A stretch of DNA of 64,000 nt. It comes from Buchnera aphidicola (Melaphis rhois) (GTDB lineage: Bacteria; Pseudomonadota; Gammaproteobacteria; Enterobacterales; Enterobacteriaceae). The position numbers and the translations under genes were made by a program. Location: the NCBI RefSeq assembly GCF_005080745.1, contig NZ_CP033004.1, forward strand, positions 67,786-131,785, given 5' to 3'. A model generated the notes under the pieces. It saw only the letters and a program-made list of their open reading frames with translations, was not told the DNA's origin and did no database searches. Below, in pieces: positions 8,197-43,394 of the stretch; positions within the stretch are counted from its first letter, which is position 1; the number at the start of each line of letters is the position of its first letter.

Positions 8197-8894
8197 ATGT
8201 CTCAAAATGCATCAGAAGTAATTTGGAAGAAATGGCATCCCGAAGAACTAAAAAAAAAAATGATATTGAATTAGATAATAATGTACATATCGATGACAAA
8301 AAATATAATGAGAGAGAAAAAAATCTGATTAACACGAACAGTGATCATACTATTAATAAAAGTGCAAAAAGTTATGATTTAGATCAAAAAAATGGTTATC
8401 AACAAGGTTTTTTAAAAGGAGAAAAAGAAGGTTTTATTGTTGGACTAGATAAAGCTTTATTAGAATTCAATAAAAAAAATGATGTTATTTTGACTAAAAT
8501 GAATAACTTATTAGTAAGTTTTGAACAATCTTTAGCAGAATTAGATGATGTCATTGCTTCTCGTATAGTGCATTTAGCATTAAGTATCGCTAAAAAGGTT
8601 ATAGAAAGTAATTCGTATTCCAATGATCAGAATTTGTTAAATAAAATAAGAGAACTGCTTAGAAATGAAAAAATTGTTTTTAATAAACCAAAATTGTTCA
8701 TTCATCCTAATGATAAAGAGATAGTTGAGAAAAATTTTGGAACTATATTTTCTAAATATGGATGGTTAGTTTTTTATGATATCAAAGTATCTATGGGAGG
8801 ATGTATTATTTCTTCGGGTGATACTATATTAGATTCAACTATATTTGGGCGTTGGACTGAATTATGCAGGTTAGTTTTAAAAAAGAGAACATAA
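8197..8894 (+). CDS. fliH: Flagellar export regulator FliH, frame broken at an 11-A run
   Basis: FliH binds and regulates the export ATPase FliI. The true start is ATG 8197, giving MSQNASEVIWKKWHPEELKK, which matches the FliH N-terminus (W-x-x-W-x-P-x-x-L). That frame ends after 25 codons at TAG 8272. The rest (NDIELDNNVHIDDK onward to KKRT) is in another frame. The switch falls at 11 consecutive A's (8250-8260), and one added A rejoins the frames into 232 residues, the normal length. The downstream frame can be read from ATG 8172, but its first 26 residues are not FliH-like. The stop overlaps the fliI start (TAATG). Either a pseudogene or a gene rescued by slippage. Confidence 0.9.
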
Positions 8895-10258
8895 TGAATC
8901 TAAGAATAAATAAATGGATGAAAGAAACATTAATTTGTGAGCAAGAAATAATTAATCTTCCTAGTACAGTAAGTTATGGACGTTTAGTTGGATTTAATGG
9001 AGCTATTTTGGAAGTTAGTGGTTTGCAATTGCCTGTAGGGTCTGTTTGTTTTATAGAAAACTCTGAAAATATGCATAGTATTGATGAAATAGAAGCTGAA
9101 GTAGTTGGATTTAAAAATGAAATATTGTTTTTAATGTTATTACAAAATATAAACAGTATTATTCCTGGTTCTCGAGTTAGACCAAAAATGTCAGGCGGTA
9201 TGAATTTCATGGTTCATAGATTACCGATATATGAAGGTTTATTAGGTCGAATATTAGATAGTACAGGTAAACCGTTAGATGGTTTAAAAGAAATTGACAA
9301 AAAACATCAAAAATCATTATCTCATTCAATATTTAACCCATTACATCGACATCCAGTTTCAGACGTATTAGATACTGGTATTCGTGCTATAAACGCATTA
9401 TTAACCATTGGAAGAGGGCAAAGAATCGGATTATTTTCTAGTTCTGGATTAGGGAAAAGTGTATTATTAGGTATGATGACGAAATATACTGCAGCTGATA
9501 TAGTTGTATTGGGGTTAATAGGAGAGCGAGGACGAGAAGTAAAAGAATTTATTGAAACTATTCTTACCAAAGAGTCTCTTAAAAAATCAGTAATCATTGC
9601 ATCTCCTGCTGAATTTTCCCCGTTATTTCAAGTTCAGGGAGCTAATTATGCAGTTCGAATTGCTGAGTACTTTCGAGATAAAAACTTTCATGTATTGTTA
9701 ATTATGGATTCTTTAACTCGTTATGCTATGGCTCATCGGGAAATAGCTTTATCTATAGGAGAGTTACCTGCTATAAAAGGATATCCTCCTTCGGTGTTTT
9801 CTAAAATATCATCATTGATAGAAAGAGCAGGAAATGGAAAAGAACGAAGTGGTTCTATTACAGCATTTTATACAGTATTAACAGAAGAAGAGGAAAAATA
9901 TGATCCTATTGCAGATTCGTCTCGGTCTATATTAGATGGACATATTATATTATCTCGAGAATATGCTGAATCTAGTCATTACCCGGCTATTAACATTGAA
10001 ACGTCTATTAGTAGAGTAATGTCAAATATCGTGGATTCTGTTCATAATACCAAAGCTTGTTACTTTAAAAAGTTACTTTCTTGTTATCAGAGAAATCGTG
10101 ATTTAATTAATGTTGGAGCATATGTTTCAGGTACTAATTCGGAGTTAGATATAGCAATTACCTTATTACCAAGATTAACGAAATTTTTACAGCAAGGCAT
10201 GCAAGAAAAGAGCTCATTTTCTGAATCTAAAAGAGATTTATATAAACTATTTAGTTGA
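8894..10258 (+). CDS. fliI: Flagellum-specific export ATPase FliI
   Basis: ATPase that helps drive export of rod and hook subunits. The 454-residue product matches the family (about 457). The Walker A loop is SSSGLGKS (K188), Walker B is the VLLIMDSLTRYA segment, and the catalytic-dimer region RAGNGKERSGSITAFYTVL is intact. The start is ATG 8894, overlapping the fliH stop by 1 nt; the frame is open further upstream inside fliH, but the family N-terminus fits MNLRINKWMK. No defects are seen, in contrast to fliH before it and fliJ after it. Confidence 0.96.
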   Translation: MNLRINKWMKETLICEQEIINLPSTVSYGRLVGFNGAILEVSGLQLPVGSVCFIENSENMHSIDEIEAEVVGFKNEILFLMLLQNINSIIPGSRVRPKMSGGMNFMVHRLPIYEGLLGRILDSTGKPLDGLKEIDKKHQKSLSHSIFNPLHRHPVSDVLDTGIRAINALLTIGRGQRIGLFSSSGLGKSVLLGMMTKYTAADIVVLGLIGERGREVKEFIETILTKESLKKSVIIASPAEFSPLFQVQGANYAVRIAEYFRDKNFHVLLIMDSLTRYAMAHREIALSIGELPAIKGYPPSVFSKISSLIERAGNGKERSGSITAFYTVLTEEEEKYDPIADSSRSILDGHIILSREYAESSHYPAINIETSISRVMSNIVDSVHNTKACYFKKLLSCYQRNRDLINVGAYVSGTNSELDIAITLLPRLTKFLQQGMQEKSSFSESKRDLYKLFS

Positions 10259-10270
10259 GGATAGAAATAT

Positions 10271-10713
10271 ATGTTTAAAAATAAAAAATCTATTGAATTA
10301 TTAAGAAAAATTGATAAAAAAAAAACCAACAATTATCTATTATTTTAGAAAAGATCGTTTTAAACAAAAATAAGATTCAAGATCAAATTAATTTATTATT
10401 AAAATATCAAAATGAATATCTTGTGAAATTGAATAAAAAATTATTGTATGGAATTGTAGGATTTAAATTAAACAATTATGATTATTTTATTTCTTCATTA
10501 ATACATGGTATTGAACAACAAAAAAAAGTTATTGAAAAATATGATAAGCAATATCAAACATATTTTGTTTTGTGGCAAAAAAGCCAATATAGGTTGCGAA
10601 TGTGGGATATGATATCTTCTAAATTGTTACATCATAGATATCAAATAATACAGCTAGAAGAACAAATGCACATTGATGAATGTGTTCAAAAATCTTTTTT
10701 TCAAAAAAGGTAG
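10271..10713 (+). CDS. fliJ: Flagellar export chaperone FliJ, frame broken at a 10-A run
   Basis: FliJ is a coiled-coil general chaperone linking FliI to the export gate. ATG 10271 opens MFKNKKSIELLRKIDKKK but stops at TAG 10346. The poly-A run at 10316-10325 (10 A's) is the break point. Adding one A continues as NQQLSIILEKIV... and then the conserved LLLKYQNEYL, joining the downstream frame through LIHGIEQQKKVIEKY to QKSFFQKR. The restored length is 147 residues, identical to E. coli FliJ. The downstream frame alone (from GTG 10423) lacks the first helix. It lies 12 nt after fliI. Confidence 0.88.
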
Positions 10714-10725
10714 ACTATTATTTAT

Positions 10726-11861
10726 ATGTTAAAGATTATTAAAACAGTTACTACTACTTTATTGCATTCAGAAAAATTTAATTTTCATCAGTTAAAATCC
10801 AAATCAAGATTAAAAACTTTTTATGAAATTTTTAATAAAAGTTTCTCATATAGTAAAAGTAATATTACGACATGCAATGTTAGTAGAAGATTAAAAATGA
10901 ATAACTTTCTTAATATTGTTTCATTAACTGGAAAGATAAAAAAAAAGTGAATAATTTGATAGATGAAAAATATTTTTTAAATAATTTTTTTATATATGGT
11001 TATATATCTTATAGGTATCATTCACTTTTTTTGAATAGTATGAAAGGTTGTTTACAACTAGAAAAATTGTCTATGAATTTAAAAGTTTATAATAATTCGA
11101 CAAAGTTTATTTATTTTTTTATTAAACAGTATATAAAACAGATAAGTTGTACGTTATTTAATGTATTAAATAAACAAACTAACTACGTTCATGTTTTCAA
11201 ACATTTATATAGATACTTAATAAAGAATACACTGAGATTTATTTATTTTGCGTCTTCTGGTATTAACTGTTTAAGCTTTAATAATATATGCAAATTAGCA
11301 ACGCATATTAAATCTATAATAGCTATGAATAATCTTTTAAAAAAAAACATATGTTATGATGAATACGTTCATATCATATTAGACTGCATGCGAACAATAT
11401 TTTCCTCTGATTTTCATATATATTCAAAATATGATGATTATATAGAAAGAAAAAATTATTGTTCATTTCATGATTACAATCCTGATTCAATGAGAAGTTA
11501 TTATATGCCATTAATTTATAAGAAATTATTAACATGTTTTTCTAAAAATAAAAAAATCGTAAAGTTATCTTTAAATGTGCAGCATTTAGGAACTTTACTT
11601 ATACGATTAGAGATAAAAAAAAATAAATTTCTTAAATTAGATTTGGTGTCTAATAATAGTATTACACAAAAAGTTTTAACATCTGATATTTCTACTTTAC
11701 GAAATATTATTTTCAAAAATGGAATGAAATTTAACGAAATTGTAGTTCGAAACCCAAATATTCAAGAGATTATATTACTAAATAAAAACAGTAATTGTTG
11801 TAGTTATACACGTAATATTATGAATATTATGTCAAAAAAAAAAATAAAACGTTTATATTAG
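10726..11861 (+). CDS. fliK: Flagellar hook-length control protein FliK, frame broken at a 9-A run
   Basis: FliK sets hook length and switches export specificity. Frame one (10726-10950, 74 codons) ends GKIKKK-stop. Frame two (from 10947) continues as NNLIDEKYF... for about 300 residues. One additional A in the 9-A run at 10938-10946 fuses them to 378 residues (E. coli 375). The FliK C-terminal domain is visible in frame two: LSLNVQHLGTLLIRLEI, then STLRNIIFKNGMKFNEIVV. The sequence before the stop reads A AAA AAG TGA, a known -1 ribosomal slippery heptamer, so ribosomal frameshifting would give the same protein. An 11-A run near the 3' end affects only the tail. Confidence 0.85.
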
Positions 11862-12055
11862 AATTATATTGTCCTAAAATAAACCAAGAAATTGTTGATA
11901 TTTACGTTTAATAATAAAATACTTTGTGCCACTAATTTTGAATTATTATGTTTTTAGTTATTTCATGTAATAATATTGTTATCAATCTACAACGAAATAA
12001 ACATTTTTCAATGTTAGCGTTTTCTATATTAACATTTACATTTTAAGGTATTGTA

Positions 12056-12991
12056 ATGAAAAATAACATTATTTTTAAAATTGGAAAAGACTATATAACG
12101 AAAAAGGGAAATAAGATCGCAATAGATTTTGTTTATAATTCAATAATAGATTATTATACCATACATCAAATAGAAAAATCTTTGAAAAATTTTTTTAATT
12201 TTTTTTCAAAAAAAATTTCTTTATTTTTTTTAGATTCAATGAATATTAATTTAGACGTTAAATTGAATAATATTCAATTAGCTAGGTATAATAGTTATAA
12301 AGAACATTTTGTTAATTCAAGATTTACTAATTCTTTTCAATTTATTTCACATGTAGAAACGGGAATAATAAGTTTTTCTGATGATATATTGCTATCTATT
12401 ATTAATATTTTGTTTGGAGGTTCAAATTTAACTAAAGTTGTTCGCAGTAATGTTAATACATTAACTATATCTGAAACTAATATTATGAAAAAAATGTTAG
12501 ATATTATCGAAAAAGCGTATAGTTTTTCTTGGAAAAATCAACATAGTATTAATTTTAATTTATCTGATTTTCAATTAATGACAAAAAGTGATTTTGAAAG
12601 AACAATATCTGAAAATAATGTTTTTTTATTTTCGTTATTTTGCATGAAAGTAGGTAATACAGTAGGATCATTTAGTATAGGTATTCCATTTAGTATTATT
12701 AAAATGTTTAAAGATAAATTGGTAAATAGACATGTTCAAAGTAATTTAACAATAAAAAGAAAAATTGAAACAATGTCATGGCCAGTAATATATAATATAA
12801 AAATACATTTGGACATTAAACTAATTGGTTTTTCATTATTTCTATCTAAAATATTAACTTTGAAAATTGGTGATATTGTTTCTATAAAGGCTCCAGAGGA
12901 CGTTATAGCATATTCTAATAATACTCCTGTATTATCAGGGAAATGTAAAATGTATAAAAAAAAATATGTTTTTTTTTTGAAAAGTTTTTAG
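12056..12991 (+). CDS. fliM: Flagellar C-ring protein FliM
   Basis: C-ring component joining FliG and FliN. At 311 residues it is shorter than E. coli FliM (334). Recognisable parts are ISFSDDILLSIINILFGG (family FSPxLVFxAVDNLFGG), the middle segment around SEFxR-like KSDFERTISE, and the C-terminal FliN-like domain with ILTLKIGDIVSIKAPEDVIAY. The N-terminal CheY-binding peptide (family LSQAEIDALLN) is missing; the protein starts directly in the linker region. That fits a basal body that no longer takes chemotactic input. A 9-A run near the end is in frame. fliL, which precedes fliM in E. coli, is absent. Confidence 0.93.
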   Translation: MKNNIIFKIGKDYITKKGNKIAIDFVYNSIIDYYTIHQIEKSLKNFFNFFSKKISLFFLDSMNINLDVKLNNIQLARYNSYKEHFVNSRFTNSFQFISHVETGIISFSDDILLSIINILFGGSNLTKVVRSNVNTLTISETNIMKKMLDIIEKAYSFSWKNQHSINFNLSDFQLMTKSDFERTISENNVFLFSLFCMKVGNTVGSFSIGIPFSIIKMFKDKLVNRHVQSNLTIKRKIETMSWPVIYNIKIHLDIKLIGFSLFLSKILTLKIGDIVSIKAPEDVIAYSNNTPVLSGKCKMYKKKYVFFLKSF

Positions 12992-13025
12992 TATAAATGT
13001 AATAGTTATTATTAGGAAAATATTT

Positions 13026-13417
13026 ATGAATGATATTAAAAACGTAGCTAAAAATAACAATGAAAATGAGATAAATGAATTAAAAGTAAGTATGGATAAA
13101 AAAAAAATGAAGAAAAAGATGATAATAAAAGAGATTTAGAAAAATCTTTAAAAAAGTTTAAAAACATTAATTTTGTTTCTGATATTCCAGTCAATATTAC
13201 AGTTGAATTAGGACAAATTAAGTTAAAAATTAAAGATCTTCTTAATATAAACAAAGATTCCATATTGGCTCTAGATAAATATTCCGGTGAACCATTAAAT
13301 ATATTGGTAAATCAATGTGTAATTGCAACAGGAGAATTAGTAATTATAGAAGAAAAATATGGCATTAGAATCACTAGTATTATTGATAATTCAGAATATT
13401 TAGATAATGTGAATTAA
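13026..13417 (+). CDS. fliN: Flagellar C-ring protein FliN, frame broken at a 10-A run
   Basis: FliN forms the base of the C-ring and docks FliH-FliI. ATG 13026 opens MNDIKNVAKNNNENEINELK and stops at TAG 13137. At the 10-A run (13098-13107) one extra A continues through NEEKDDNKRDL to the conserved core: DIPVNITVELGQIKLKIKDL, SILALDKYSGEPLNILVN, then CVIATGELVIIEEKYGIRIT. The restored length is 130 residues (E. coli 137). The core lies downstream of the break and has no convincing start of its own, so without slippage no FliN core would be made. Its good conservation argues that it is still selected. Confidence 0.9.
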
Positions 13418-13452
13418 TTATTGTAAATAACAAAAAATTTTCTGTGGGTATT

Positions 13453-13812
13453 ATGTTGCAATCTATTTTAACAGAAACAATGTTTTCAAAAGTTGCAATT
13501 TGGTCTTTCAAAATAATAGTGATTATTATATTATTTACTTGGGTACTTAAAAGAATTATTCTTACAAAAAATGCGATAAATAATTCTTCAATAAAGGTCT
13601 TAGAACGAATATCAGTTGGATCTAATGTAAGTATCGTTGTGCTAGATGTAAAAGAAATGAGATTAGTCATAGGTGTTACTTCAACAAATATTTCCATTTT
13701 ATATAAATTGCCACCTGTTATAGAAAAAGGTAAACAAGGATTGTCAATTAAATCTGAAGATATTGAAAATATAAAAAAAGATTTGTCACACGTTTTTGGA
13801 ATAAAACAATGA
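13453..13812 (+). CDS. fliO: Flagellar export protein FliO
   Basis: FliO is a small membrane protein that helps assemble the FliP ring of the export gate. One transmembrane helix (about residues 13-33, [14 protein letters not shown]) is followed by a cytoplasmic domain with the family pattern [19 protein letters not shown] and [19 protein letters not shown]. From ATG 13453 it has 119 residues (E. coli 121). A GTG at 13444 is a possible alternative start that adds three residues. It overlaps fliP by 4 nt and follows fliN by 35 nt. Confidence 0.9.
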
Positions 13813-14540
13813 TTTATCGGATAGTTTCATTATTTCTATTATTATTTTGTCCTATGGTATATGCGGGAGATTTTAATTTTTTTAGTCATCCATTATCAGA
13901 TGGAGGACAAAGTTGGTCTGTTCCAGTACAAATGTTGGTATTCATTACATCATTAACGTTTATTGCACCAGTTTTGTTAATGATGACTAGTTTTTCTAGA
14001 ATTATTATTGTTTTTAGTTTATTACGTAATGCTTTAGGAACTCCTTATTCTCCTCCAAATCAAATTCTGTTAGGTCTATCTCTTTTTTTAACTTTTTTTA
14101 TTATGGCCCCAGTGTTCGACAAAATTTATCAGGATGCGTATTTGCCATTTAGTGAAGATAAAATTAATATGGATGTAGCTTTTGAAAAAGGTATGAAACC
14201 TTTACGTCAATTTATGATTAAGCAGACTCGAGAAAATGATTTAGCTTTTTTTTCCAAATTAGCTAATATTTCTAATTTTTCACATATAGAAGATATACCA
14301 ACGCGCGTGCTATTGCCGTCTTTTGTTACTAGTGAACTGAAAACAGCTTTTCAAATTGGATTTACTATTTTTATTCCATTTTTAATAATTGATTTGGTAG
14401 TAGCTAGTGTTCTTATGGCTTTAGGAATGATGATGGTTCCTCCTTCAACAATATCGTTGCCTTTTAAGTTAATGTTATTTGTATTAGTAGATGGTTGGCA
14501 ATTGTTGATTACATCTTTAACTCATAGTTTTTTTCATTAA
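13809..14540 (+). CDS. fliP: Flagellar export gate protein FliP
   Basis: Core component of the FliPQR export channel in the inner membrane. 243 residues (E. coli 245). An N-terminal signal peptide is visible ([19 protein letters not shown], probable cleavage after the Ala). Conserved family blocks are [44 protein letters not shown] and the C-terminal [20 protein letters not shown]. The start overlaps the fliO stop by 4 nt. No defects seen. Confidence 0.97.
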
Positions 14541-14614
14541 GTATTTAACGTTATTATGACGATATTTACGATATTTAATATTTTATTTTTTAATATTGTA
14601 TATTAAGGAGATGT

Positions 14615-14884
14615 ATGACAGTTGAATCTGTAATGACTCTTTTTCATGAAGCAATGAAAATTGCGTTAATGCTTGCTTCACCTTTACTATTATCTGCTTT
14701 GTGTAGTGGTTTAGTTATTAGTATTATTCAAGCTGCTACTCAAATAAATGAACAAACGTTATCGTTTATTCCTAAAATTATTACAGTATTATTATCTATT
14801 GTTATTTTTGGTCCTTGGATGTTAACTTTAATGTTAGATTATACTCGCTCTTTATTTAATAATTTGTCATTGATTACTAGTTAA
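14615..14884 (+). CDS. fliQ: Flagellar export gate protein FliQ
   Basis: Small two-helix membrane subunit of the FliPQR channel; 89 residues, the same as in E. coli. Hydrophobic helices lie at about residues 15-38 and 52-76, with the family signature IIQAATQINEQTLSFIPKI between them. AAGGAG precedes ATG 14615. It is separated from fliP by 74 nt and overlaps fliR by 1 nt (TAATG). Confidence 0.96.
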   Translation: MTVESVMTLFHEAMKIALMLASPLLLSALCSGLVISIIQAATQINEQTLSFIPKIITVLLSIVIFGPWMLTLMLDYTRSLFNNLSLITS

Positions 14885-15657
14885 TGATTACTTTGAATGT
14901 TCATGATTTTATGTCTATTTTTTGTAATTTTCTTTTTCTAGCAATACGGATTTTATCTTTTGTCGCAATTGCTCCACTATTAGGAGATAAGTCTATCCCA
15001 AAAAAAATACAATTGTTTATTACATTTATTTTAAGTTGGTTTTTTATGCTTATTATACCTAAAGTGAAAATTGATTTATTTTCTAGTGATGGATTGTTAA
15101 TATTATTTGAGCAAATATTAATTGGTATGTCTTTAGGATTTGCGATGCAGTTGATATTTTCAGCTATTAAAGTAGCTGGAGAGATTATAAGTTTTCAAAT
15201 GGGTTTATCTTTTTCATCTTTATTAGATTGGAATACTCATTCTAATATATCTGTGTTATCTCGGTTTCTCTATATATTTTTATTATTATTGTTTTTAGAG
15301 TTTAATGGTCACATTCTGATGATATCAGTATTATTTGATACTTTTAGAGCGTTTCCAATAACACCAATTAAATTAGATTCAGAAAAATATCTTCATATTG
15401 TTATGTTTACGAAATTTGCTTTTATTGATGGATTCATGTTAATGTTGCCAGTTATTATTATTCAATTAATACTTAATTTTTCTATGGGTATCTTAAATAG
15501 GATTGCATCTCAGATTTCTATTTTTTCTATTGGATTTACGGTAACGTTACTTATAGGAGTATATACTGTTTACTTGTTTATTCCAACTATCCCGTATGTT
15601 TATAATAATATTTTTAATCGTTTAATGTGGATTTGTTCTATTTTGTCTAAGGGATAG
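14884..15657 (+). CDS. fliR: Flagellar export gate protein FliR
   Basis: Membrane subunit completing the FliPQR channel; 257 residues (E. coli 261). Multiple hydrophobic helices are present, with family blocks RILSFVAIAPLLGDKSIPKK, GMSLGFAMQLIFSAIKVAGE and MGLSFSSLLDWNTHSNISVL. It begins 1 nt inside the fliQ stop. It is the last gene of the flagellar operon; rpmG converges on it from the other side. Confidence 0.96.
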   Translation: MITLNVHDFMSIFCNFLFLAIRILSFVAIAPLLGDKSIPKKIQLFITFILSWFFMLIIPKVKIDLFSSDGLLILFEQILIGMSLGFAMQLIFSAIKVAGEIISFQMGLSFSSLLDWNTHSNISVLSRFLYIFLLLLFLEFNGHILMISVLFDTFRAFPITPIKLDSEKYLHIVMFTKFAFIDGFMLMLPVIIIQLILNFSMGILNRIASQISIFSIGFTVTLLIGVYTVYLFIPTIPYVYNNIFNRLMWICSILSKG

Positions 15658-15822
15658 ATGCAAATTTAAATATATATAGAAATGATATAATTAGATTTTT
15701 TTAAGTATTATGGAATTGTAAAATATTATATTGTTGTATTTATTTTTTATTGCATTAGTACAAGTATTATATTTCATTACTATGGTATGTAAATAGCAAT
15801 TTTAAGTATAAGTTTTTTTCTA

Positions 15823-15873
15823 TAAAATGCTAATCTATTCTTTTTTTAACAGTGATATAGTTAGCATTATATA
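15823..15873. repeat. Imperfect inverted repeat between fliR and rpmG
   Basis: ATGCTAA (15827-15833) and TTAGCAT (15861-15867) are reverse complements; with flanking bases the arms match at most positions over about 13 bp around a 27-nt T-rich loop. It lies between convergent genes, where a bidirectional terminator would be useful. Chance occurrence in AT-rich DNA is quite possible. Confidence 0.3.
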
Positions 15874-15914
15874 GTCTAAGTTTAATTATAGTGATTTATT
15901 TATTATTAGAATAA

Positions 15915-16082
15915 TTATTTCATTTTTTCTTCTCTATATAAGACATGTTTTTTAACAATAGGATCGTATTTTTTTAGTGTCAATTTTTGAGTTTTATCTT
16001 TTTTATTTTTTGTTGTAGTATAATAATGTTTACTACCTGACGAAGAAATTAATTTTATTTTATGTCGTATACTTTTTGCCAT
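15915..16082 (-). CDS. rpmG: 50S ribosomal protein L33
   Basis: Small large-subunit ribosomal protein of 55 residues, the same length as in E. coli. The product reads [20 protein letters not shown], then [20 protein letters not shown] and [15 protein letters not shown], aligning end to end. AGAGGA lies 7 nt before ATG 16082. The start lies inside the 3' end of the rpmB frame (23-nt overlap), unless the rpmB frame is shifted at its A9 run and ends first at 16094. Transcribed with rpmB as in E. coli rpmBG. Confidence 0.97.
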
Positions 16083-16320
16083 TTTTTTGTCCTCTATTTT
16101 TTAATAGATTTTTTTTTAATATTATTTCTAGCCCAATTTTATCTATGCAGCGTATACCTTTTGCAGATACTTTTAATGAAATAAATTTATTTCTTTGTAC
16201 ATCCCAAAATTTATGAAAATGTAAATTTGGTAAAAATCGTTTTTTAGTAGCATTCATAGCGTGAGATCGATTATTTCCAATCATTGGTTTTTTACCAGTG
16301 ATTTGACATTTTTTAGACAT
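16060..16320 (-). CDS. rpmB: 50S ribosomal protein L28
   Basis: Large-subunit protein; [20 protein letters not shown] and [14 protein letters not shown] match L28 closely, as does [18 protein letters not shown]. The uninterrupted frame gives 86 residues with an unusual tail that runs 23 nt into rpmG. E. coli L28 has 78. At the A9 run (T9 at 16109-16117 on the plus strand), one extra A would end the protein at TAG 16094 with 75 residues and place that stop directly over the rpmG ribosome-binding site. Which product is made is undecided; the core is sound either way. GAGG precedes ATG 16320. Confidence 0.95.
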
Positions 16321-16455
16321 AATTACAATTTTTACCTCGATATTGTTTTAGACGTTTAAATGTTTGTTGAATTATAAATATTTTATGTAATTCTTATATA
16401 TTAGAGATTAATTTTTAAAATTATAGATCAAATATTGCTAATAGGATTTATTTTA

Positions 16456-19816: not shown

Positions 19817-19927
19817 TTTTCTGCCTATTTTATTATTGATTTTTTATATTTATATTAAAGGATAAAGTTTTATTTTATTTTTTTTCAGTGTACTATAACA
19901 AATAATTTGATATTTTGATAAAAAATT

Positions 19928-32431: not shown

Positions 32432-32823
32432 TATATTTCCTTTATTCTTAGATAAAACCTTTTTATTTTCGCTTTAGATATAAATGATTAATATCATGTA
32501 AATTTTATTTTAAACGTTTATAAAAAATATATCAATTTTAAGAAAAGTATTTATTTGATTTTATTAGTATTTATAAATAAAATTATAAGATATCTTATTG
32601 TTTGATTATTATATTTAAAATTATATTTTTAATAAATGATGTAAATTATATTATTTAATTATATAATATTTTAGGTTGTAGTGTAATTTTATATAATTAA
32701 ATAATAATTTAAATTTTTAAAATATTATTTAGTTGATATTGAAATTTATTTATTGGTATCCCATTAAATGCGATATTTAGAATTTATATTTAAAACATTC
32801 ATTATAATGGTAATTTTATACAA
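32432..32823. other. Region between aroC and smrB where prmB is missing
   Basis: 392 bp of AT-rich sequence separating the divergent aroC and smrB. In E. coli prmB (glutamine methyltransferase acting on ribosomal protein L3) lies upstream of aroC at this spot. No frame resembling PrmB could be read. Promoters for both genes must be here. Confidence 0.5.
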
Positions 32824-33354
32824 ATGAGAAAAAAACAATTATTATTTCATGAAGATTGGTTCTTATTCTATCAAGGATTAAAAGGATTTCAAAAAATGAA
32901 GCAGGATACTATTTTTCACATGAGATATCATAAAGAAAAAAAAAATATGGTATTGAAAAAAAGTATTTTTGAACAAGATGCTCATTGCCATTATTTTTCT
33001 TCTAACAAACCAAAAATGTTAATTAATTTGGATCCTATATATTATATTAGAGATAATAGTTATTTAAATGAGCTAAAAAAACTTAAAGTTGGTGCATATA
33101 TTCCAGATATTATTTTAGACTTGCACGGTTTAACTCAATATCAAGCTAAGAGAAAATTAGGTGAATTGATTCATATTTGTTATAAAAAAAAATTTTTTTG
33201 TGCTAATGTAATTCATGGACATGGTAAAAATATTTTAAAGAGACAAATACCATTATGGTTGTCCAAACATCCTGATATAATAGCATTTCATCAAGCACCT
33301 AAAATGTTTGGTAGTGATGCTGCTATTTTAGTATTAATTGATTTTAAAGTTTAA
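32824..33354 (+). CDS. smrB: Ribosome rescue endonuclease SmrB
   Basis: SmrB (YfcN) cleaves mRNA between collided ribosomes. 176 residues (E. coli 183). The N-terminal part keeps KMKQDTIFH; the Smr domain has DLHGLTQYQAKRKLGELI, the HGHGKNILKRQIPLWLS block and AFHQAPKMFGSDAAILVLI. The catalytic DxH (DLH) and the HGHGK are present. A 10-A run (32936-32945) inside EKKN is in frame here, so slippage would damage rather than rescue it. Divergent from aroC as in E. coli. Confidence 0.94.
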   Translation: MRKKQLLFHEDWFLFYQGLKGFQKMKQDTIFHMRYHKEKKNMVLKKSIFEQDAHCHYFSSNKPKMLINLDPIYYIRDNSYLNELKKLKVGAYIPDIILDLHGLTQYQAKRKLGELIHICYKKKFFCANVIHGHGKNILKRQIPLWLSKHPDIIAFHQAPKMFGSDAAILVLIDFKV

Positions 33355-34002: not shown

Positions 34003-34902
34003 ATGATTCATAATAATCGATTACGAATAGTAATGCAGAAAACTGGAAGGTTAAGCAGTGATTCGAAAGATTTATTAGTTCGTTGTGGTATCAAAATTAA
34101 TTTGTGTAAGCAAAAGTTAATTGCGTTTTCTGAAAATATGCCAATAGATGTTATGTGCGTAAGAGATGATGATATTCCTGGTTTAATTATGGATGGTATT
34201 GTAGATATAGGAATTATTGGAGAAAATGTTTTGGAAGAAGAAGTACTTAGTCGAAAATTAAGATTAGATAGTGTAGATTATATTAAATTAAAGCGTTTAG
34301 ATTTTGGAGTTTGTAGATTATCTTTAGCTGTCCCGATTGATAAAGAATATACAGACATATATTGTTTAAATAATTCAAGAATTGCTACATCTTATCCTCA
34401 TTTATTAAAAAAATATTTTGATAAAAAAAATATTATATTCAAGTCTTGTATGCTAAATGGATCAGTAGAAGTAGCGCCTCGTGCAGGATTGTCTGATGCT
34501 ATTTGTGATTTAGTATCTACAGGAGCGACTTTAGAAGCTAATGGATTACGTGAAGTTCAAATTATATTTCGATCTAAAGCATGTTTAATTTGTAAAACTG
34601 GTAATATTTCTGTTGAAAAGCAAAATGTTATCAATACATTAATGACACGTATTCAAGGTGTAATTAAAGCAAGAGAATCAAAATACATCATGTTGCATGC
34701 ACCTATAAAAAAGTTAGAAGAAGTAATCGATTTATTACACGGTGCTGAACGTCCTACAATACTAAAATTAGCTGGAGATGATTCTCGAGTAGCTATGCAT
34801 ATGGTTAGTAGTGAGACATTATTTTGGGAAACAATGGAAAAATTAAAATTATTGGGAGCTAGTTCTATTTTAGTATTACCAATTGAAAAAATGATGGAAT
34901 AA
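34003..34902 (+). CDS. hisG: ATP phosphoribosyltransferase
   Basis: First step of histidine synthesis, joining ATP and PRPP. 299 residues from ATG 34003, exactly the E. coli length; the frame extends 10 codons upstream but AAAGGA sits 6 nt before this ATG. It is the long (hexameric, ACT-like regulatory domain) form. Motifs: [46 protein letters not shown] with the PRPP loop [11 protein letters not shown], and the C-terminal regulatory part [10 protein letters not shown] to LPIEKMME. First gene of hisGDCBHAFI. Confidence 0.97.
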
Positions 34903-34906
34903 CTAC

Positions 34907-36214
34907 ATGAAAAATTGTTTAAAAATTATTCATTGGGATCGTTGTAGTATTGAAGAACGAGAAAAAATATTATCTCGACCAATTTTAGATGACTTAAGTG
35001 CTATTAAAAAACAAGTAAAAACAATCATTTCTGATGTTAATAGTTTAGGAGATCAAGCTCTATATAATTATACTAACATATTTGATAAAATTAAATTAAA
35101 TAATATTAAGATTAGTCATCAAGATTTAGTTAAGGCAGAATTATGTATTGATGTAAAAGCAAAAAATGCTATTCAGGTAGCTATTGATAATATTAGGACA
35201 TTTCATATATCTCAAAATATAAGTACACTTAATATAGAAATTAATAAAGGTATTTATTGTCAGCAAATTGTACGTCCTATTGGATCTGTTGGTTTGTATA
35301 TTCCAGGTGGTTCAGCGCCTCTATTATCTACAGTGTTAATGCTAGCAATACCAGCTAGAATTGCTGGATGTAAAAAAATTGTTCTTTGTTCCCCTCCTCC
35401 TATTACGAATGAAGTGTTATATGCAAGCAAAATTTGTGGAGTACAAGAGATATTTCAAGTAGGCGGTGCTCAAGCAATAGCAGCATTAGGTTTCGGCACT
35501 GAAACAATACCAAAAGTCAACAAAATATTTGGGCCAGGAAATGCATATGTTACGGAAGCAAAATCTCAAATTAGTCGATCTTTATATGACGTAGGTATTG
35601 ATATGTTGGCTGGACCATCTGAAGTATTAATTATCGCGGATTCTTCAGCTAATGTTGATTTTATTGCTTCTGATTTGTTGTCTCAATCAGAACATGGCAA
35701 TTATTCTCAAGTTATATTAATCACTTGTGACATTAATTTAGCTAATGCAGTGTTAGAACAAATACGCAAACAAGTTAAAAATTTATTAAGGAGTAGGATT
35801 ATTATTCAATCGTTAAAACATAGTAAAATTATTATAGTAAAAAATTTATTAGAATGTTTTGAGTTGTCCAACTATTATGCTCCCGAACATTTAATGATTC
35901 AATGTGAATATCCACAACGTTTATTAAAATATGTTTTAAATGCTGGTTCTATCTTTTTAGGTCATTGGTCTCCAGTAGCATCGGGAGATTATGCAACTGG
36001 TGCTAATCATGTTTTACCTACATATGGTAGTGCTAAAGCGTATTCTGGACTTAGTCTTATTGACTTTCAAAAGAGAATTACAGTACAAAAATTAGATAAA
36101 GTAGGTTTTAAAAATCTTGCTTCTACTATTATGTCATTGTCAACTATAGAGAGATTAGATGCTCATACAAATTCAATTTTAATTAGGTTGTCTTCATTAA
36201 TGGATGAAATGTAA
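34907..36214 (+). CDS. hisD: Histidinol dehydrogenase
   Basis: Zinc enzyme carrying out the last two oxidations to histidine. 435 residues (E. coli 434). Conserved: YIPGGSAPLLSTVLMLAIPA, VGGAQAIAALGFGTETIPKV, IFGPGNAYVTEAK, DMLAGPSEVLIIAD, the metal-ligand region SQSEHGNYSQVILIT, and ATGANHVLPT. Intact. It starts 4 nt after hisG. Confidence 0.97.
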   Translation: MKNCLKIIHWDRCSIEEREKILSRPILDDLSAIKKQVKTIISDVNSLGDQALYNYTNIFDKIKLNNIKISHQDLVKAELCIDVKAKNAIQVAIDNIRTFHISQNISTLNIEINKGIYCQQIVRPIGSVGLYIPGGSAPLLSTVLMLAIPARIAGCKKIVLCSPPPITNEVLYASKICGVQEIFQVGGAQAIAALGFGTETIPKVNKIFGPGNAYVTEAKSQISRSLYDVGIDMLAGPSEVLIIADSSANVDFIASDLLSQSEHGNYSQVILITCDINLANAVLEQIRKQVKNLLRSRIIIQSLKHSKIIIVKNLLECFELSNYYAPEHLMIQCEYPQRLLKYVLNAGSIFLGHWSPVASGDYATGANHVLPTYGSAKAYSGLSLIDFQKRITVQKLDKVGFKNLASTIMSLSTIERLDAHTNSILIRLSSLMDEM

Positions 36215-36216
36215 TT

Positions 36217-37296
36217 ATGAATATCAAAAAATTAGTTCGAAAGGATATTCGGGAATTAATACCTTATCAATCTGCACGAAAAATAGGTGGGAAAGGTGAT
36301 ATATGGTTGAACGCGAATGAATTTCCTGAGTTTAATAATATTAAGTTAAATAACATTATTTTAAATCGTTATCCAGAATGTCAACCTGAACAATTAACAT
36401 CTTGTTATTCTTCTTATATTGGTATTAATAAAAGTAATATATTAATAACTCGAGGTATCGATGAAGCAATTGAATTATTAATAAAAACTTTTTGCAATCC
36501 TCAAAATGAAAAAATTATTTTTTGTCCTCCTACTTATGATATGTATAATATTAGTGCAAAAATTATTGGAATTAAAAGCTATGAGGTACCATTATTAAAT
36601 TTTTCTTGGCAATTAGACATTAATAATATTGCTAAGTATATTAGTGATGCTAAATTAATTTATATATGCAATCCTAACAATCCCACCGGTAACTTAATTA
36701 ATTATCAAGATATTATTACTTTATTGAACATAACTTTAGGAAAAACACTCGTAATAGTAGATGAAGCATATATTGAATTTTCTCCAATACATAGTTTAAC
36801 GAATTTAATAGATACGTATCCTAACTTAGTTATATTGAGAACGTTATCTAAGGCTTTTGCTTTAGCTGGACTACGATGTGGTTTTATATTAACGAATGTC
36901 AATATAGTAAAGTTTTTATTAAAAGTTATTAATCCCTATCCTATTCCTATTCCTACTACAAGTATAGCTGTTCAATTTCTAAGTAAAAATAATATTAATG
37001 AGATGAGAAATAGAATTTTTGATTTGACGTTGAATCGTTTTTGGTTGGTAAATAAATTAAAATCCATGAATAATTGTGTAGAGCATGTTTTTAATAGTTT
37101 TGCTAATTACATTTTAGTTCGATTTTACAATTCTCGTAAAGTTTTTGATATATTGTCAAAAAAAGGAATTATTGTTAGAGATCAAAGTAATAAATTGCAT
37201 TTAAGTAGATGTTTAAGAATATCCATAGGAACTAGTAAAGAATGTTTAGAAGTTGTTCGAGTTATTCAGAAGATTAATAGTTTATGTGTATATTAA
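36217..37296 (+). CDS. hisC: Histidinol-phosphate aminotransferase
   Basis: PLP enzyme converting imidazole-acetol phosphate to histidinol phosphate. 359 residues (E. coli 356). The PLP lysine is in LRTLSKAFALAGLRCG (K212); CNPNNPTGN, VDEAYIEFSP and the N-terminal LNANEFP are the family signatures. It starts 2 nt after the hisD stop. Confidence 0.97.
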   Translation: MNIKKLVRKDIRELIPYQSARKIGGKGDIWLNANEFPEFNNIKLNNIILNRYPECQPEQLTSCYSSYIGINKSNILITRGIDEAIELLIKTFCNPQNEKIIFCPPTYDMYNISAKIIGIKSYEVPLLNFSWQLDINNIAKYISDAKLIYICNPNNPTGNLINYQDIITLLNITLGKTLVIVDEAYIEFSPIHSLTNLIDTYPNLVILRTLSKAFALAGLRCGFILTNVNIVKFLLKVINPYPIPIPTTSIAVQFLSKNNINEMRNRIFDLTLNRFWLVNKLKSMNNCVEHVFNSFANYILVRFYNSRKVFDILSKKGIIVRDQSNKLHLSRCLRISIGTSKECLEVVRVIQKINSLCVY

Positions 37297-37305
37297 GGAA
37301 ATAAT

Positions 37306-38373
37306 ATGAATAAAAAAGTTTTATTTATTGATCGTGATGGAACATTAATTGCAGAACCTAATCAAAATTTTCAAGTAGATGATATAAATAAATTAACTTT
37401 TGAAAAATGCGTGATTCCAGCTTTAATTAAACTAAAAGAGTTTGGTTATACATTTGTTATAATTACTAACCAGGATGGATTGGGTTCTAAAAAATTTCCA
37501 TTAGCTTCATTTTCTATACCTCATCAATTTATGATAAACGTTTTTCTATCTCAAGGTATAGTATTCGAAGATATTTTGATTTGTCCTCATGAAGTTGAAC
37601 ATCGTTGCAATTGCCGAAAACCTAAGATAGGGATGATAAAACATTGGTTAGATAGTGATCAGTTAGATAAAAAAAATAGTTATGTTATTGGAGATCGTGA
37701 TTCAGATATGGAATTAGCAAAAAATTCTGAATTATTAGGATTCCATTATGGAAAGAATGGATGTACGTGGAATACTATACAGTCTAAGTTGACCCAAAGA
37801 AATAGATATGCATGTATTATTAGGAATACTAAAGAAACCAAAGTTAAAATAGAAGTATGGTTAGATAGATGTGGGGAAAATTTAATTAATACTAAATTGC
37901 ATTTCTTTAATCATATGTTAAATCAAATAGCAATTCATAGTAATATTAGAATGAAAATAGTGTCTAATGGAGATACTCATGTTGATGATCATCATACAAT
38001 AGAAGATGTTGGCATTGTTTTAGGACAAGTTTTAAATAAAGCGTTGGGAAATAAAATAGGTTTAGATAGATTTGGTTTTACTTTACCTATGGATGAAAGC
38101 GTAGGATATTGTTTAATGGATATTTCTGGTCGTCCTTTTTTAAAATTTGAATCTCAATTTAAATTTCAGCATATAGGTGATATGAGTACAGAAATGGTAG
38201 AACATTTTTTTAGATCTTTAGCTTTTTCGATGCAAATAACTTTACATTTAAAAAGTACAGGTGAAAACGATCATCATCGGATTGAAAGTTTATTTAAAGT
38301 TTTTGGAAAGACGCTAAGACAAGCTATTAACGTAAATGGAACGACCTTACCGAGTTCTAAAGGATTTTTATAA
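37306..38373 (+). CDS. hisB: Bifunctional histidinol-phosphatase / imidazoleglycerol-phosphate dehydratase
   Basis: Two enzymes in one chain, as in enterobacteria. The N-terminal HAD phosphatase (about 1-165) has FIDRDGTL (D9, D11) and the zinc loop [14 protein letters not shown]. The C-terminal dehydratase (about 167-355) has the duplicated metal motifs [10 protein letters not shown] and [10 protein letters not shown]. 355 residues, equal to E. coli. AAGGAA precedes ATG 37306; its stop overlaps the hisH start by 1 nt. Confidence 0.97.
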
Positions 38374-38963
38374 TGAGTGTAGTTATCATAAATACCGGTT
38401 GTTCTAATTTATCTTCTATAAAATATGCTATTTGTAGACTAGGTTATAATCCAAAAATTAGTACTTCTGTAAGAGATATATTAAGTGCAAATAAAATATT
38501 ACTACCGGGTGTAGGTTCAGCATATTCAGCGATTCGAGTATTATCAGAATCAAATTTATTAAATATTATTAAAAAATGTCAGCAGCCGTTTTTAGGTATT
38601 TGCTTAGGTATGCAATTGTTAAGTGCTTTTAGTAGCGAAGCACAAGGTTTGGATCTTTTGAGTATTATTAATTCACCTGTATATAGGTTAAATTCCGGTT
38701 CGTTACCATTGCCTCACAATGGATGGAACAATGTAGAAATATGCAGAAATAATGTGTTATTTGAAGATATTGAGAATCATTCTAAATTTTATTTTTTACA
38801 TAGTTATTCTGTAGACATTACTAAATATACTATAGCAAAAACGTTATATAATACTTATTTTAGTGCTGCTATACAAAAGAACAATTTTTTTGGAGTTCAA
38901 TTTCATCCAGAAAAATCTGGAAAAGTTGGTTTAAAATTATTAAAAAATTTTTTGGAGATATGA
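38373..38963 (+). CDS. hisH: Imidazole glycerol phosphate synthase glutaminase subunit
   Basis: Class I glutamine amidotransferase feeding ammonia to HisF. 196 residues, the same as in E. coli. Catalytic triad: C77 in [11 protein letters not shown], and His/Glu in [16 protein letters not shown] forms the oxyanion region. Overlaps hisB by 1 nt and hisA by 4 nt, giving tight coupling. Confidence 0.97.
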
Positions 38964-39703
38964 TATTGATCATACCATCTGTAGATTTAATTAATGGGAA
39001 AATTGTTAGATTATATCAGGGAAAATATAATTGTAAAACTTCTTATGAAGATGATATATATGACGTTTTATCAAATTATTATTCACAAGGATCATCTATT
39101 GTACATTTAGTAGATTTAGATGGAGCACTGAACCCTAAAAGAAAACAAATTCATATTATTGAAACTTTACTTTCTAATTCTAATTTTAATATACAAGTAG
39201 GAGGTGGAATACGAACACGTCAAGACATAGAGTTGTTATTTTCGTTAGGTGTTAAGCGAGTAGTAATTGGTTCTTTAGCTATATACGATTCTATTACAGT
39301 AAAGACATGGTTAAAAGAATATGGAGGAGATGCTATTATATTAGCATTTGATATAAGAATTAATAATCATGAATATAAAGAAGTAGTAGTAGATGCTTGG
39401 AAAAAATTTTCTGGAGTTAGTTTAGAAAAATTAATAGATGAGTTTTCTTCATGTGGTCTTAAGTATGTTTTATGTACTGATATATCTAGAGATGGAACAT
39501 TGTTAGGTCCTAATATAAATTTATATAAAGATCTCGTAAAGTCATTCAGCCATATTAGTTTTCAATCTTCTGGTGGCATAGGATCTCTGAATGATATAAC
39601 ATCTATTAAGCAATCTGGAGTAGAAAGTATAATTATTGGAAGAGCTTTATTAGAAAAAAAATTCAGTTTAATAGAGGCTATACAATGTTGGCAAAACGGA
39701 TAA
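38960..39703 (+). CDS. hisA: Phosphoribosylformimino-AICAR isomerase (ProFAR isomerase)
   Basis: Beta/alpha barrel that isomerises ProFAR to PRFAR. 247 residues (E. coli 245). [18 protein letters not shown] carries the first catalytic Asp (D9); VHLVDLDGA, the phosphate loop VGGGIRT and the second catalytic Asp in [17 protein letters not shown] are present. It overlaps hisF by 19 nt. Confidence 0.97.
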
Positions 39704-40461
39704 TTCCTTGTTTAGATGTAAGTAATGGACAAGTAGTAAAAGGTATTCAATTTAAGAATCATAAAATAGTTGGCAATATACTTCCATTAGCACAATATTA
39801 TACTGATCAAGGAGCAGATGAATTAGTATTTTATGATATTAAAGCTTCATCAGATAATAGATTATTAGATAAAAAATGGATTACTCAAATAGCAGAGGTA
39901 ATAGATATTCCATTTTGTGTAGCTGGAGGCATTAAAACAGTGAATGATGTTAAAGATATTTTGTCTTTTGGTGCGGATAAAATTTCTATTAATTCTCCAG
40001 CTTTATCAAATCCAGATTTAATTAGTCGTATTGCTGATAGTTTCGGTATACAATGTGTAGTTATTGGAATAGATTCATGGTTTGATAAGATAAGCAATAG
40101 TTATCAAGTATATCAATATACTGGAAGTACACAGAGAACAGTAAGAACGAAATGGAATACGTTTGATTGGATAAAAAGAGTACAAGACTTAGGTGCTGGA
40201 GAAATAGTACTAAATGTAATGAATGAAGATGGAATGCGTAATGGATATGATTTAAAGCAATTAACTCAAGTAAGAAAAATATGTCATGTACCTCTAATTG
40301 CTTCTGGTGGAGCAGGTGAATTACAGCATTTTTATGACGTTTTTCATAAATCTCGAGTAGATGGTGCATTAGCTGCTTCCGTATTTCATGAAAATATAAT
40401 AAATATAAAAACTCTTAAGAATTTTTTAATTGAAAGAGGTTTAGAGATTAGAAAATGTTAA
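39685..40461 (+). CDS. hisF: Imidazole glycerol phosphate synthase cyclase subunit
   Basis: Beta/alpha barrel partner of HisH; makes imidazole glycerol phosphate and AICAR. 258 residues, the E. coli length. [17 protein letters not shown] holds the first catalytic Asp (D11); the second is in [18 protein letters not shown]. Phosphate-binding VAGGIKT and ASGGAG are present. Overlaps hisA by 19 nt and hisI by 7 nt. Confidence 0.97.
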
Positions 40462-41081
40462 AAAAAATAAATGTTTCTGATATAGATTGGAACAAGGTTG
40501 GTAATATGGTACCGACTATAATTCAACACAGTATTTCCGGTGAAGTATTGATGTATGGAGTTATGAATCAAGAAGCCGTTTTAATAACGCAAAAAGAACA
40601 TTATGTTACTTTTTATTCTCGAACGAAAAAGCGATTATGGAAAAAAGGAGAAATATCTGGAAACTATTTACGAGTAGTTAATATGATACTTGACTGTGAT
40701 AAAGATACATTATTAATTTTAGTACTTCCTCAAGGAAATACGTGTCATTTAAATCATACAAGTTGTTTTAAATCGTTTACTTCAGATTTGACTTTTTTTT
40801 ATCATCTTGAAAACATATTAAAACTAAAACAAAAACATATTTCTAAACACTCTTATACTTCTCGTTTACATGTTATGGGTATTAATAAAATTGCTCAAAA
40901 AGTTGCTGAAGAAGCAGCAGAAACAGTTATTTCTGCTATAACACAGAATAAATTAGAATTAATTGATGAAGTTACTGATTTAATTTATCATGTGTTAGTA
41001 TTGTTACATCATTGTGATTTAGATTTTTGTATGATTGTTGAAAATTTAAGAAAAAGAAGAAACAATAATACTGTAATATGA
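40455..41081 (+). CDS. hisI: Bifunctional phosphoribosyl-AMP cyclohydrolase / phosphoribosyl-ATP pyrophosphatase
   Basis: Catalyses the second and third steps of histidine synthesis. The N-terminal cyclohydrolase has [34 protein letters not shown] and the zinc motif [20 protein letters not shown]. The C-terminal pyrophosphatase has [15 protein letters not shown] and [13 protein letters not shown]. 208 residues (E. coli 203). It overlaps hisF by 7 nt and closes the operon. Confidence 0.96.
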
Positions 41082-41174
41082 TATAAATTTTTATATTTAT
41101 TTTTAATGTATGTCCGAAAAATTAATTTTGCTAACATTTTAATTTTATAATCTTAGAGTATAGAGGAGTAAAAA

Positions 41175-42587
41175 ATGACAAAAAAACAAATTGGTATAAT
41201 AGGAATGGCAACAATGGGTCAAAATTTAGCTTTAAATATAGCACGTAATAAATATACTGTATCTGTATTTAATAGATCATCTGAAGTTACTAAACAATTT
41301 GTTTTAAATAATGTTAATGAAAATATATTTCCATTTTTTTCAATTAAAGAGTTTATTCGATCTTTAAAAGTTCCACGATGTATTTTAATAATGATTAAGT
41401 CTGGTATAGCTGTTGACGACATTATTGAATTGATGAAGAAATATTTAAATAAAGGAGATATTATTATTGATGGAGGAAATACTTTTTACCAAGAGACCAT
41501 TCGACGAAGTCATGAGTTATCTAAGCATGGGTTATATTTAATAGGGGCAGGTATTTCTGGAGGCGCTGAAGGTGCGTTATATGGACCTGCTATTATGCCT
41601 GGAGGATCTAGAAAAGCTTATGATTATATTGCTCCTATATTAAAAAAAATTTCTTCAAAATTTGAAGGACAACCGTGTGTTAGTTATATAGGTAAAGATG
41701 GATCAGGACATTATGTTAAAATGGTACATAACGGTATTGAATATGGTGATATGCAATTAATAGCTGAATCTTATTTTTTAATGAAAAACTTGTTAAAATT
41801 AGATAATCAAGAATTATCGGATATATTTTTAGAGTGGAATAAAGGAGAATTAAATAGTTATTTAATATCAATTACGACAAATATTTTAATTAAGAAAGAT
41901 ATTAATAATAGTTATATAGTGGATTATATTTTAGATGAAGCTGATAATAAAGGAACAGGAACATGGGCTACTAAGAGCGCTCTAGATCTTAACGAACCTT
42001 TAACTTTAATAACTTCATCGGTTTTTTTTCGTTATTTGTCATCTTTAAAATCAGAACGAATGTTAGCATCAAAAATGTTATTTGGACCTAAAAATAATCA
42101 TATGCTGTCTAATAAGATCGATTTAATTGAAAAAATTCGTAAGTCTCTTTATTTAGGAAAAATTATATCTTATGCTCAAGGTTTTTCACAACTAAGTAGC
42201 GCTTCTAAGAAATATGATTGGAATTTACAATATTCAGAAATAGCTAGAATTTTTCAATCTGGATGCATTATTCGTGCAAAACTGTTAAAATATATTAGTC
42301 AAGGATATTTAAAAAATAAAGATATTGTTAATTTATTGTTGATTAGCTATTTTAAAAATATTGTTAATAGTTATCAAGATGCGCTTCGAGATGTTGTATC
42401 AATTGCTATTAAATCTGGGATTCCAGTTCCAGCTTTATCTTCTGCAATAACGTATTTTGATTGCTATAGATCTGCTATATTACCTGCAAATTTAATTCAA
42501 GCTCAAAGAGATTATTTCGGATCACATACGTATAAACGAATTGATAATTGTAATTTTTTTCATACTGATTGGAACGAAAATAGTTAA
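41175..42587 (+). CDS. gnd: 6-phosphogluconate dehydrogenase, decarboxylating
   Basis: Oxidative pentose phosphate enzyme yielding ribulose 5-phosphate and NADPH. 470 residues (E. coli 468). NADP-binding [14 protein letters not shown], substrate motifs [19 protein letters not shown] and [17 protein letters not shown] (catalytic Lys and Glu), and the C-terminal [20 protein letters not shown] precedes ATG 41175. It follows the his operon, as gnd neighbours his in E. coli. Confidence 0.97.
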
Positions 42588-42813
42588 TAAATCATTAGTA
42601 GTTGAAATTTCACATTATTATAGTAATTAACAATTATAACTTGAACATATATTGTTTTATGTAATTATAGAGCTTTTAAACGCTATATGTATTTTATTGT
42701 TTTATTTATTGAAAGTTTATATTTCAAATTTTTATAGAATAACAGTATTAAACTGTTTTGATTCGTTATTTTTGTATTTTAAATTAATTAGATAGCATTA
42801 TAGGTTGTTCGAA

Positions 42814-43394
42814 ATGAGATTAAGTGATAGAGATATTGAATTATGGTTGAAAAAAAAAAGTTAGTTATTATACCTACCCCGAATAAAAAATTTATCCATG
42901 GAGTAACTATTGATATTCGCTTGGGTAATCAATTTTATACTTTTTGCCAAAGTAAAAAATATAGTATTGACTTAAGTAAATCAAAGAATGAAATTGCTTT
43001 AATGCTACAAGAAATTATGAGTAAAAAAAAGGTTATATCGAATAGCGAGAGGTTTGTGTTAAAACCTAAATCATTAGCACTAGCAGTTACTTTAGAAAAA
43101 GTTGTTATGCCTAATGATTTAGTAGGATGGATAGATGGTCGTTCGTCTTTAGCTCGACTTGGATTAATGATTCATGCTACTGCACATCGTATAGATCCAG
43201 GTTGGAGTGGAAATATTGTTTTAGAGTTTTTTAATTCTGGTAATATGATATTGACATTATGTCCAGGAATGCTAATAGGTGCTTTGAGTTTTGAATTGTT
43301 ATCTAGTCCATCTTTGAGACCGTATAATATGAGAAGAGATGCTAAATACTTCAATCAAGATGGAGTGACATTGAGTAAAATATATGAAGATTAA
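42814..43394 (+). CDS. dcd: dCTP deaminase, frame broken at a 10-A run
   Basis: Deaminates dCTP to dUTP, the main route to dTTP in enterobacteria. The N-terminus MRLSDRDIELWLKKK matches E. coli (MRLCDRDIEAWL) and starts at ATG 42814, but this frame stops at TAG 42862. The break is the 10-A run 42850-42859; one extra A reads on as KLVIIPTPNKKFIHGVTIDI and gives 193 residues, exactly the E. coli length. The rest is well conserved: GWIDGRSSLARLGLMIH, AHRIDPGWSGNIVLEF (catalytic Glu), RPYNMRRDAKY. The downstream frame can start at ATG 42843 but lacks the conserved N-terminus. It overlaps metG by 11 nt. Confidence 0.93.

Follow-up and report, generated by a model that had tools for sequence, protein, structure and literature searches.

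Single-base frameshifts at long A-runs in Buchnera genes, with splits in fliJ, nadD and ftsI common to most related genomes

Five genes in a stretch of the Buchnera aphidicola (Melaphis rhois) chromosome, fliH, fliJ, fliK, fliN and dcd, each consist of an upstream and a downstream half that lie in differing frames and are split at a run of A's. The stretch (hereafter the window) is 64,000 nucleotides long and covers positions 67,786 to 131,785 of contig NZ_CP033004.1. The breaks are probably genuine, frameshifts of one base at long runs of A; the genes would still be selected as whole proteins, with the break bypassed by slippage. This reading is drawn from sequence comparison, namely from the differing frames of the halves, from three splits (fliJ, nadD and ftsI) that are common to most of the related genomes, and from nadD and the C-terminal part of fliJ, which evolve as coding sequence.

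The genome of the window is a single contig of 616,452 bases with ~25% GC. It was compared with ten relatives (G001–G010), giving 11 genomes of one genus, which we take to be Buchnera. In a tree built from 28 window genes, G003 and G007 are separate from the remaining nine genomes, which we call the ingroup. Each gene was scanned across the 11 genomes with a frameshift-aware protein-to-DNA aligner, and gene starts were read by eye. A break is given the sign "+1" when the run is one base short and one added A rejoins the frame; "-1" is the opposite.

Splits common to most ingroup genomes

The fliJ gene is split in all nine ingroup genomes, each with 15 codons, an A-run and the remainder of the gene in another frame. 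The run is A10 in eight of them and A9 in G008, and none of the nine has an indel in the 45 bases between the ATG and the run. Window genes contain 97 sites at which a run of A9 or longer is present in one or more ingroup genomes; of these, the fliJ run is the sole one with at least nine A's in all nine genomes, and the runners-up reach six. Past the run, changes at the three codon positions number 145/105/204, mainly third, and this constraint is immediate, with 27/15/53 in the first 90 nt. With the intact FliJ of G003 as the reference (lowered penalty), the two halves met at the run in every ingroup genome; the join is gapless in eight of the nine, and G004 has a single gap.

Further splits of this kind were found in a wider scan of 400 kb in five genomes (357 families, 1724 gene × genome pairs), where 8 of 528 A9+ sites are retained in five of five genomes; two of these eight led to splits in nadD and ftsI. 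Both were detected through run conservation and a scan for split open reading frames (ORFs); the frameshift-aware scan had missed them because all references were broken as well. The nadD gene is split, with sign "+1", at a conserved A10 in eight of nine ingroup genomes (at ~461,060 in the window's own genome), and the halves flanking this run are each recognised by NCBIfam models. It is unsplit, in one frame, in G001, and no nadD match was obtained in G003 or G007. Changes by codon position are 75/49/91 upstream of the run and 145/73/192 downstream, indicating that both halves are constrained. The ftsI gene is split with sign "+1" in seven of nine ingroup genomes; it is in frame in G001 (A11) and in G008, where a longer T-run precedes the A-run, and it is intact without a run in G003. 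The window's own genome has two A10 breaks in ftsI (~240,000–241,000), the old shared one and a second downstream of the same sign. The same break is thus found across divergent lineages (fliJ in 9/9, nadD in 8/9 and ftsI in 7/9 ingroup genomes), and on sequence grounds it looks old and may be under selection.

Broken and intact genes of the window

An earlier note on this DNA had named six poly-A genes in need of the same correction, four of them in one operon, with rpmB as a possible sixth case. Five of them are indeed split with one sign, and fliH, fliJ, fliK and fliN do lie in the fli operon (Table 1). The sixth, rpmB, was ruled out: it is intact, in one frame shared with its relatives, and its tail is variable within the genus. 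The confirmed set is therefore five. We called fliH, fliN and dcd with the frameshift-aware scan; fliJ and fliK were not called there and were read by eye, and the fliJ split was additionally recovered by the scan with a lowered penalty.

Table 1. Split genes of the window with their A-runs, and rpmB. Positions are those of the window.
Feature	Position	Strand	Observation
fliH	8197..8894	+	split at A11; frameshift backed by 8/8 references; relatives match its N-terminus in the other frame
A11 run in fliH	8250..8260	+	out of frame, +1 sign
fliJ	10271..10713	+	split after codon 15 at A10; common to 9/9 ingroup genomes
A10 run in fliJ	10316..10325	+	out of frame, same sign in 9/9 ingroup genomes
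fliK	10726..11861	+	split at A9; read by eye; fast-evolving
A9 run in fliK	10938..10946	+	out of frame, +1 sign; read by eye
fliN	13026..13417	+	split at A10; frameshift backed by 7/9 references
A10 run in fliN	13098..13107	+	out of frame, +1 sign
dcd (dCTP deaminase)	42814..43394	+	split after codon 12 at A10; 6/7 references; TIGR02274 match; start codon checked
A10 run in dcd	42850..42859	+	out of frame, +1 sign
rpmB (L28)	16060..16320	-	intact; TIGR00009 match

There are 24 A9+ runs on coding strands in the window, of which 5 are broken and 19 are in frame; by length, the broken share is 1/18 for A9, 3/4 for A10 and 1/2 for A11. The runs that had been described as in frame, in talA, smrB (A10, 32936–32945), fliM, rsxC (two), infC, rsmI, aroC, a MATE transporter gene and tilS, each proved to fall within one ORF, and no frameshift was called at any of them.

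A longest-ORF caller reports fliH as intact, with an open 240-aa ORF at 8172–8894 that starts out in the wrong frame; such breaks can therefore hide in annotation. The break in fliK may be ordinary decay, because the gene is fast-evolving and is decayed in G002 and G006; in G005 and G009 it has the opposite sign (by eye). The fliN gene toggles: besides the window, G005 and G004 have it split, and four genomes (G002, G006, G010 and G001) have it in frame with A8 to A10 at that place. The dcd gene is decayed in G005. Elsewhere in the genus, G002 has a 26-T run inside a decayed fliO (about 15,893 of locus L006), and the rsx (rnf) operon of G010, related to window positions 49365–54566, is a block of pseudogenes in decay that carries numerous frameshifts, both "+1" and "-1".

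We also asked if the breaks cluster in the fli operon more than its runs would predict. Break labels were shuffled over 160 runs of the window's own genome with run lengths kept; the nadD and old ftsI splits came to light later and are outside this set. The operon holds 4 of 13 own-genome breaks against 1.85 expected (p = 0.024, for an operon chosen post hoc), and the largest 10-kb cluster anywhere gave p = 0.07. With eight long A-runs, the operon is rich in them, and this mostly explains the clustering. Flagellar genes also occur in the 400 kb scanned beyond the window (the own genome has rod genes at 363 kb), and none was found there among the named broken families, the unnamed ones being three families adjoining N and five short ORFs suspected to be in rRNA regions. 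Four breaks in one operon thus stand as a count and are weak as a cluster once run lengths are kept, and a coordinated dose of the export apparatus, which had been suggested from them, is not indicated.

Sign and run length across the genus

Breaks were pooled from the window region of the 11 genomes and the 400 kb of five, with 2305 gene × genome pairs kept, and each break was allotted to the longest run inside the overlap of both frames. At A9+ runs, 46 breaks have sign "+1" and 9 have sign "-1", counts that are not independent, as sister genomes have some breaks in common; collapsed to one count per gene and sign (a hand-made list), the ratio is 34:9 (p = 1.7e-4). As a control, the eight gene–genome rows with more than two frameshifts, taken without any exclusions, gave 19:19 (Fisher p = 0.001 against 46:9), although five of these rows come from the rsx operon of G010 and the frameshifts in the rows are not confined to A-runs; the same rows minus two gave 12:13. 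The broken share in the pooled sample is 8/825 for A9, 35/250 for A10, 10/31 for A11 and 2/8 for A12.

Left out of the 46:9 count are 8 of the 66 window families (one is a short antisense ORF and seven have no member in the window) and 8 of the 357 families from the wider scan (dsbA, mutS, a duplicate, and five ORFs that are short or suspected to be in rRNA regions), together with matches of coverage below 0.6 (including own-genome rluC), calls adjoining N and six rows with more than two frameshifts. The splits added by eye (fliJ, fliK, G004 fliN, nadD and the old ftsI split) are likewise outside it. Frameshift calls in emtA-like, ung, lepA and bioB are close to gene ends and ambiguous.

The sign is thus biased without being absolute, and the phenomenon is genus-wide. 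The uniform sign proposed earlier, with the same correction for every gene, holds for the five genes of the window and, as a bias, for the genus; it is not exclusive, as 9 of 55 breaks in the wider sample carry the other sign and some of these are common to sister genomes. The sisters G008 and G009 have in common "-1" breaks at an A10 in ribF and at a T9 in mraY, so that breaks of the other sign can persist too; they also have breaks in ackA, tusE and rsxC in common. In ackA, three genomes have an in-frame A12, and two sister genomes carry an A11 that is out of frame.

Outside the window, the own genome has breaks of the same class in recB, recC, nadK, murG, ftsI, pncB, holA, rluC and nadD, and the relatives have them in ligA, pheS, fabB, ribE, fabD, fabZ, tmk, murD, murE, ispE, erpA and others. 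In E. coli, ligA, pheS, fabB, holA, nadK, ftsI, fabZ, tmk and murD are essential. As a class, these breaks take the form of one frameshift at a run of A9 or longer, in homologous genes that are open apart from it, and most affected genes have one frameshift and no further lesion.

Much of the genus has damaged mismatch repair. The mutS gene is whole in 5 of 11 genomes and decayed or unmatched in six, including the own genome (437,247–438,633), where it has nine frameshifts; mutL is in one frame in 3 of 11 and decayed, split or unmatched in eight, with many stops in the own genome (577,067–577,963) and a split across two frames near residue 130 in G008 and G009. Loss of mismatch repair was rejected as a simple cause of the breaks, as G001 retains both genes whole and still shows three breaks in its window region.

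Readings of the breaks and known systems

If the split genes are bypassed by slippage, RNA polymerase would slip on A9 to A12, mostly adding A's, and a fraction of the mRNAs would thereby be in the joined frame and give full-length protein, perhaps helped by -1 slippage of ribosomes at these A's. Slippage biased to insertions would rescue runs that are one base short, most others would be lost, and the sign bias would result. As rescue would require an unbroken run, a rescued gene would be tied to its run, with fliJ, nadD and ftsI as putative old examples. The bias is expected on this reading because transcription insertions in Buchnera concentrate in A/T homopolymers: PMC5574713 reports that homopolymers received 151 of 157 insertions versus 16 of 57 deletions, and that single-base insertions rise exponentially with run length. 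The sign does not single out transcription, however, because -1 ribosomal slippage and homopolymer under-calling predict the same sign. A stronger form of the reading, which we regard as unlikely, is that the A10 sites in fliJ, nadD and ftsI predate the split of the nine lineages and are kept as obligatory recoding, the out-of-frame A10 of fliJ itself being selected; the fliJ split is kept in all nine ingroup genomes, none of which has escaped. Insertion-biased slippage would then be needed by the lineage to make a protein of flagellar export, a transpeptidase of cell division and an essential enzyme of NAD synthesis, and the out-of-frame fliJ A10 could, for example, hold FliJ at low dose.

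Several observations weigh against bypass by slippage. Codons 2–15 of fliJ lack a third-position excess (15/11/15), and their coding use is therefore argued from the kept frame and length. With other references, the fliJ split is placed at the run in fewer ingroup genomes, five of nine with E. coli FliJ and seven of nine with that of G007 (lowered penalty). G001 nadD and G001 and G008 ftsI are in one frame, so lineages can escape. The nine "-1" breaks demand another route. The T-run control, a test for sequencing error, did not separate the two bases (T10 0/17 versus A10 35/250, p = 0.14), with too few long coding T-runs for a comparison (a single T11); rsxB has a possible T10 break in G002 (4/8 support) and G006 (5/9), under the cut used for the pooled count. 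According to PMC5574713, none of the transcription errors that it recorded brought a gene back into frame. FliH and FliN are named among the Buchnera proteins detected in PMC8109811, the main text of which is without FliJ and FliK, in a strain whose frame status may differ. In favour of rescue, corrected transcripts amounted to 12–50% in the Tamas 2008 study, as cited in PMC5009743; the published Buchnera RNA data are thus mixed.

Alternatively, the mRNA could be unaltered and the joined protein could arise when ribosomes shift by -1 on the A-run (A AAA AAA), an explanation that we find unlikely. The slippery heptamer is present in all phases inside every A9+ run and the sign bias is predicted equally, but we found no convincing conserved structure past the run in fliJ or nadD, the two genes examined (consensus energy -1.82 kcal/mol for fliJ, with 3/20 pairs changed on both sides, and -0.04 for nadD), and published Buchnera work favours altered transcripts (Tamas 2008, via PMC5009743). 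For fliJ alone, translation might begin at a new start past the run, leaving the N-terminal codons as a leader or relic. The missing third-position excess in these codons would fit, as would an in-frame GTG at 10423 in the window and possible weak starts (ATT/ATA/ATC) at codons 6, 10, 43 and 55 past the run in all nine ingroup genomes. Among the first 91 codons past the run, however, no ATG, GTG or TTG is common to the nine (a TTG at codon 24 is present in five), constraint starts directly past the run, and the halves join there when compared with the G003 protein; we consider a new start improbable.

Ordinary pseudogene decay would make the genes dispensable and the sign a product of deletion-biased replication slippage, a matter of mutation and not of rescue. 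If long runs tend to lose bases, that alone would produce the sign; the 19:19 control is not confined to A-runs, the mutS damage described above affects six of the 11 genomes including the own one, and fliK and dcd are decayed in the relatives named above. Yet most of these genes have one frameshift and no other lesion, nadD and fliJ are constrained by codon position, the fliJ, nadD and ftsI splits persist, and many affected genes are essential in E. coli; decay as a general account is quite doubtful. The poly-A indels of the Buchnera of Myzus persicae are described as flanking conserved sequence (PMC3890641). The same source gives low coverage of poly-A regions with 454 reads, which would suit homopolymer under-calling in the assemblies, with apparent breaks at runs always one base short; this predicts the sign and the rise with run length as well. 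Under-calling is nevertheless very improbable as the explanation of the whole set: site and sign are common to most or all ingroup genomes in fliJ, nadD and ftsI, the sisters G008 and G009 have breaks in common (ackA, tusE, rsxC, "-1" ribF and T9 mraY), no break was called at 215 of the 250 A10 runs, and for each of six Aphidinae Buchnera genomes 8 to 18 frameshifts in homopolymers are listed (PMC3164680 Table 1). It may account for some single-genome breaks, fliH and dcd being among the candidates here.

If whole-protein selection with bypass by slippage is correct, working genes are being discarded or given wrong starts when such symbionts are annotated, and errors of transcription are a permanent component of their gene expression. 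The three shared splits make a debated idea, reported in 2008 and not seen in the PMC5574713 data as described there, sharply testable at named sites: at fliJ, nadD and ftsI it can be asked whether slippage carries essential functions over long times. We found no published report of a shared fliJ, nadD or ftsI frameshift in Buchnera, which is weak evidence of absence since supplements were outside the scope of the search. The depth of the shared splits seems new; the rescue phenomenon itself is genus-wide and already published, and fliJ is the case worth an experiment.

Programmed -1 ribosomal frameshifting of the dnaX type uses an A-run as its slippery site. The breaks described here are alike in this site and in sign, and differ in having no convincing stimulatory structure in fliJ or nadD. 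That poly-A slippage rescue had been described in Buchnera and Blochmannia, as the earlier note stated, is borne out in print (PMC3164680, PMC3017870, PMC5009743). The ancient frameshifts of Blochmannia (Wernegreen et al. 2010, cited in PMC3017870) are likewise breaks conserved across species in undegraded genes; the present case concerns Buchnera, and the genes fliJ, nadD and ftsI. The Aphidinae counts in PMC3164680 (8 to 18 per genome) are also of homopolymeric frameshifts, hitting murF repeatedly and murE and mraY in one strain; there, most pseudogenes (42/69) are confined to single genomes, and 'fli' is absent from the main text. The closest likeness is to the poly(A) rescue of Tamas 2008, as presented in PMC5009743, PMC3164680 and PMC3017870, with the same single A-run indel in an otherwise intact gene of an insect endosymbiont and with cell-wall genes hit. 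Compared with that work, the present case is a comparison of DNA and adds the sign bias, the run-length dependence and three splits common to 7 to 9 of nine lineages.

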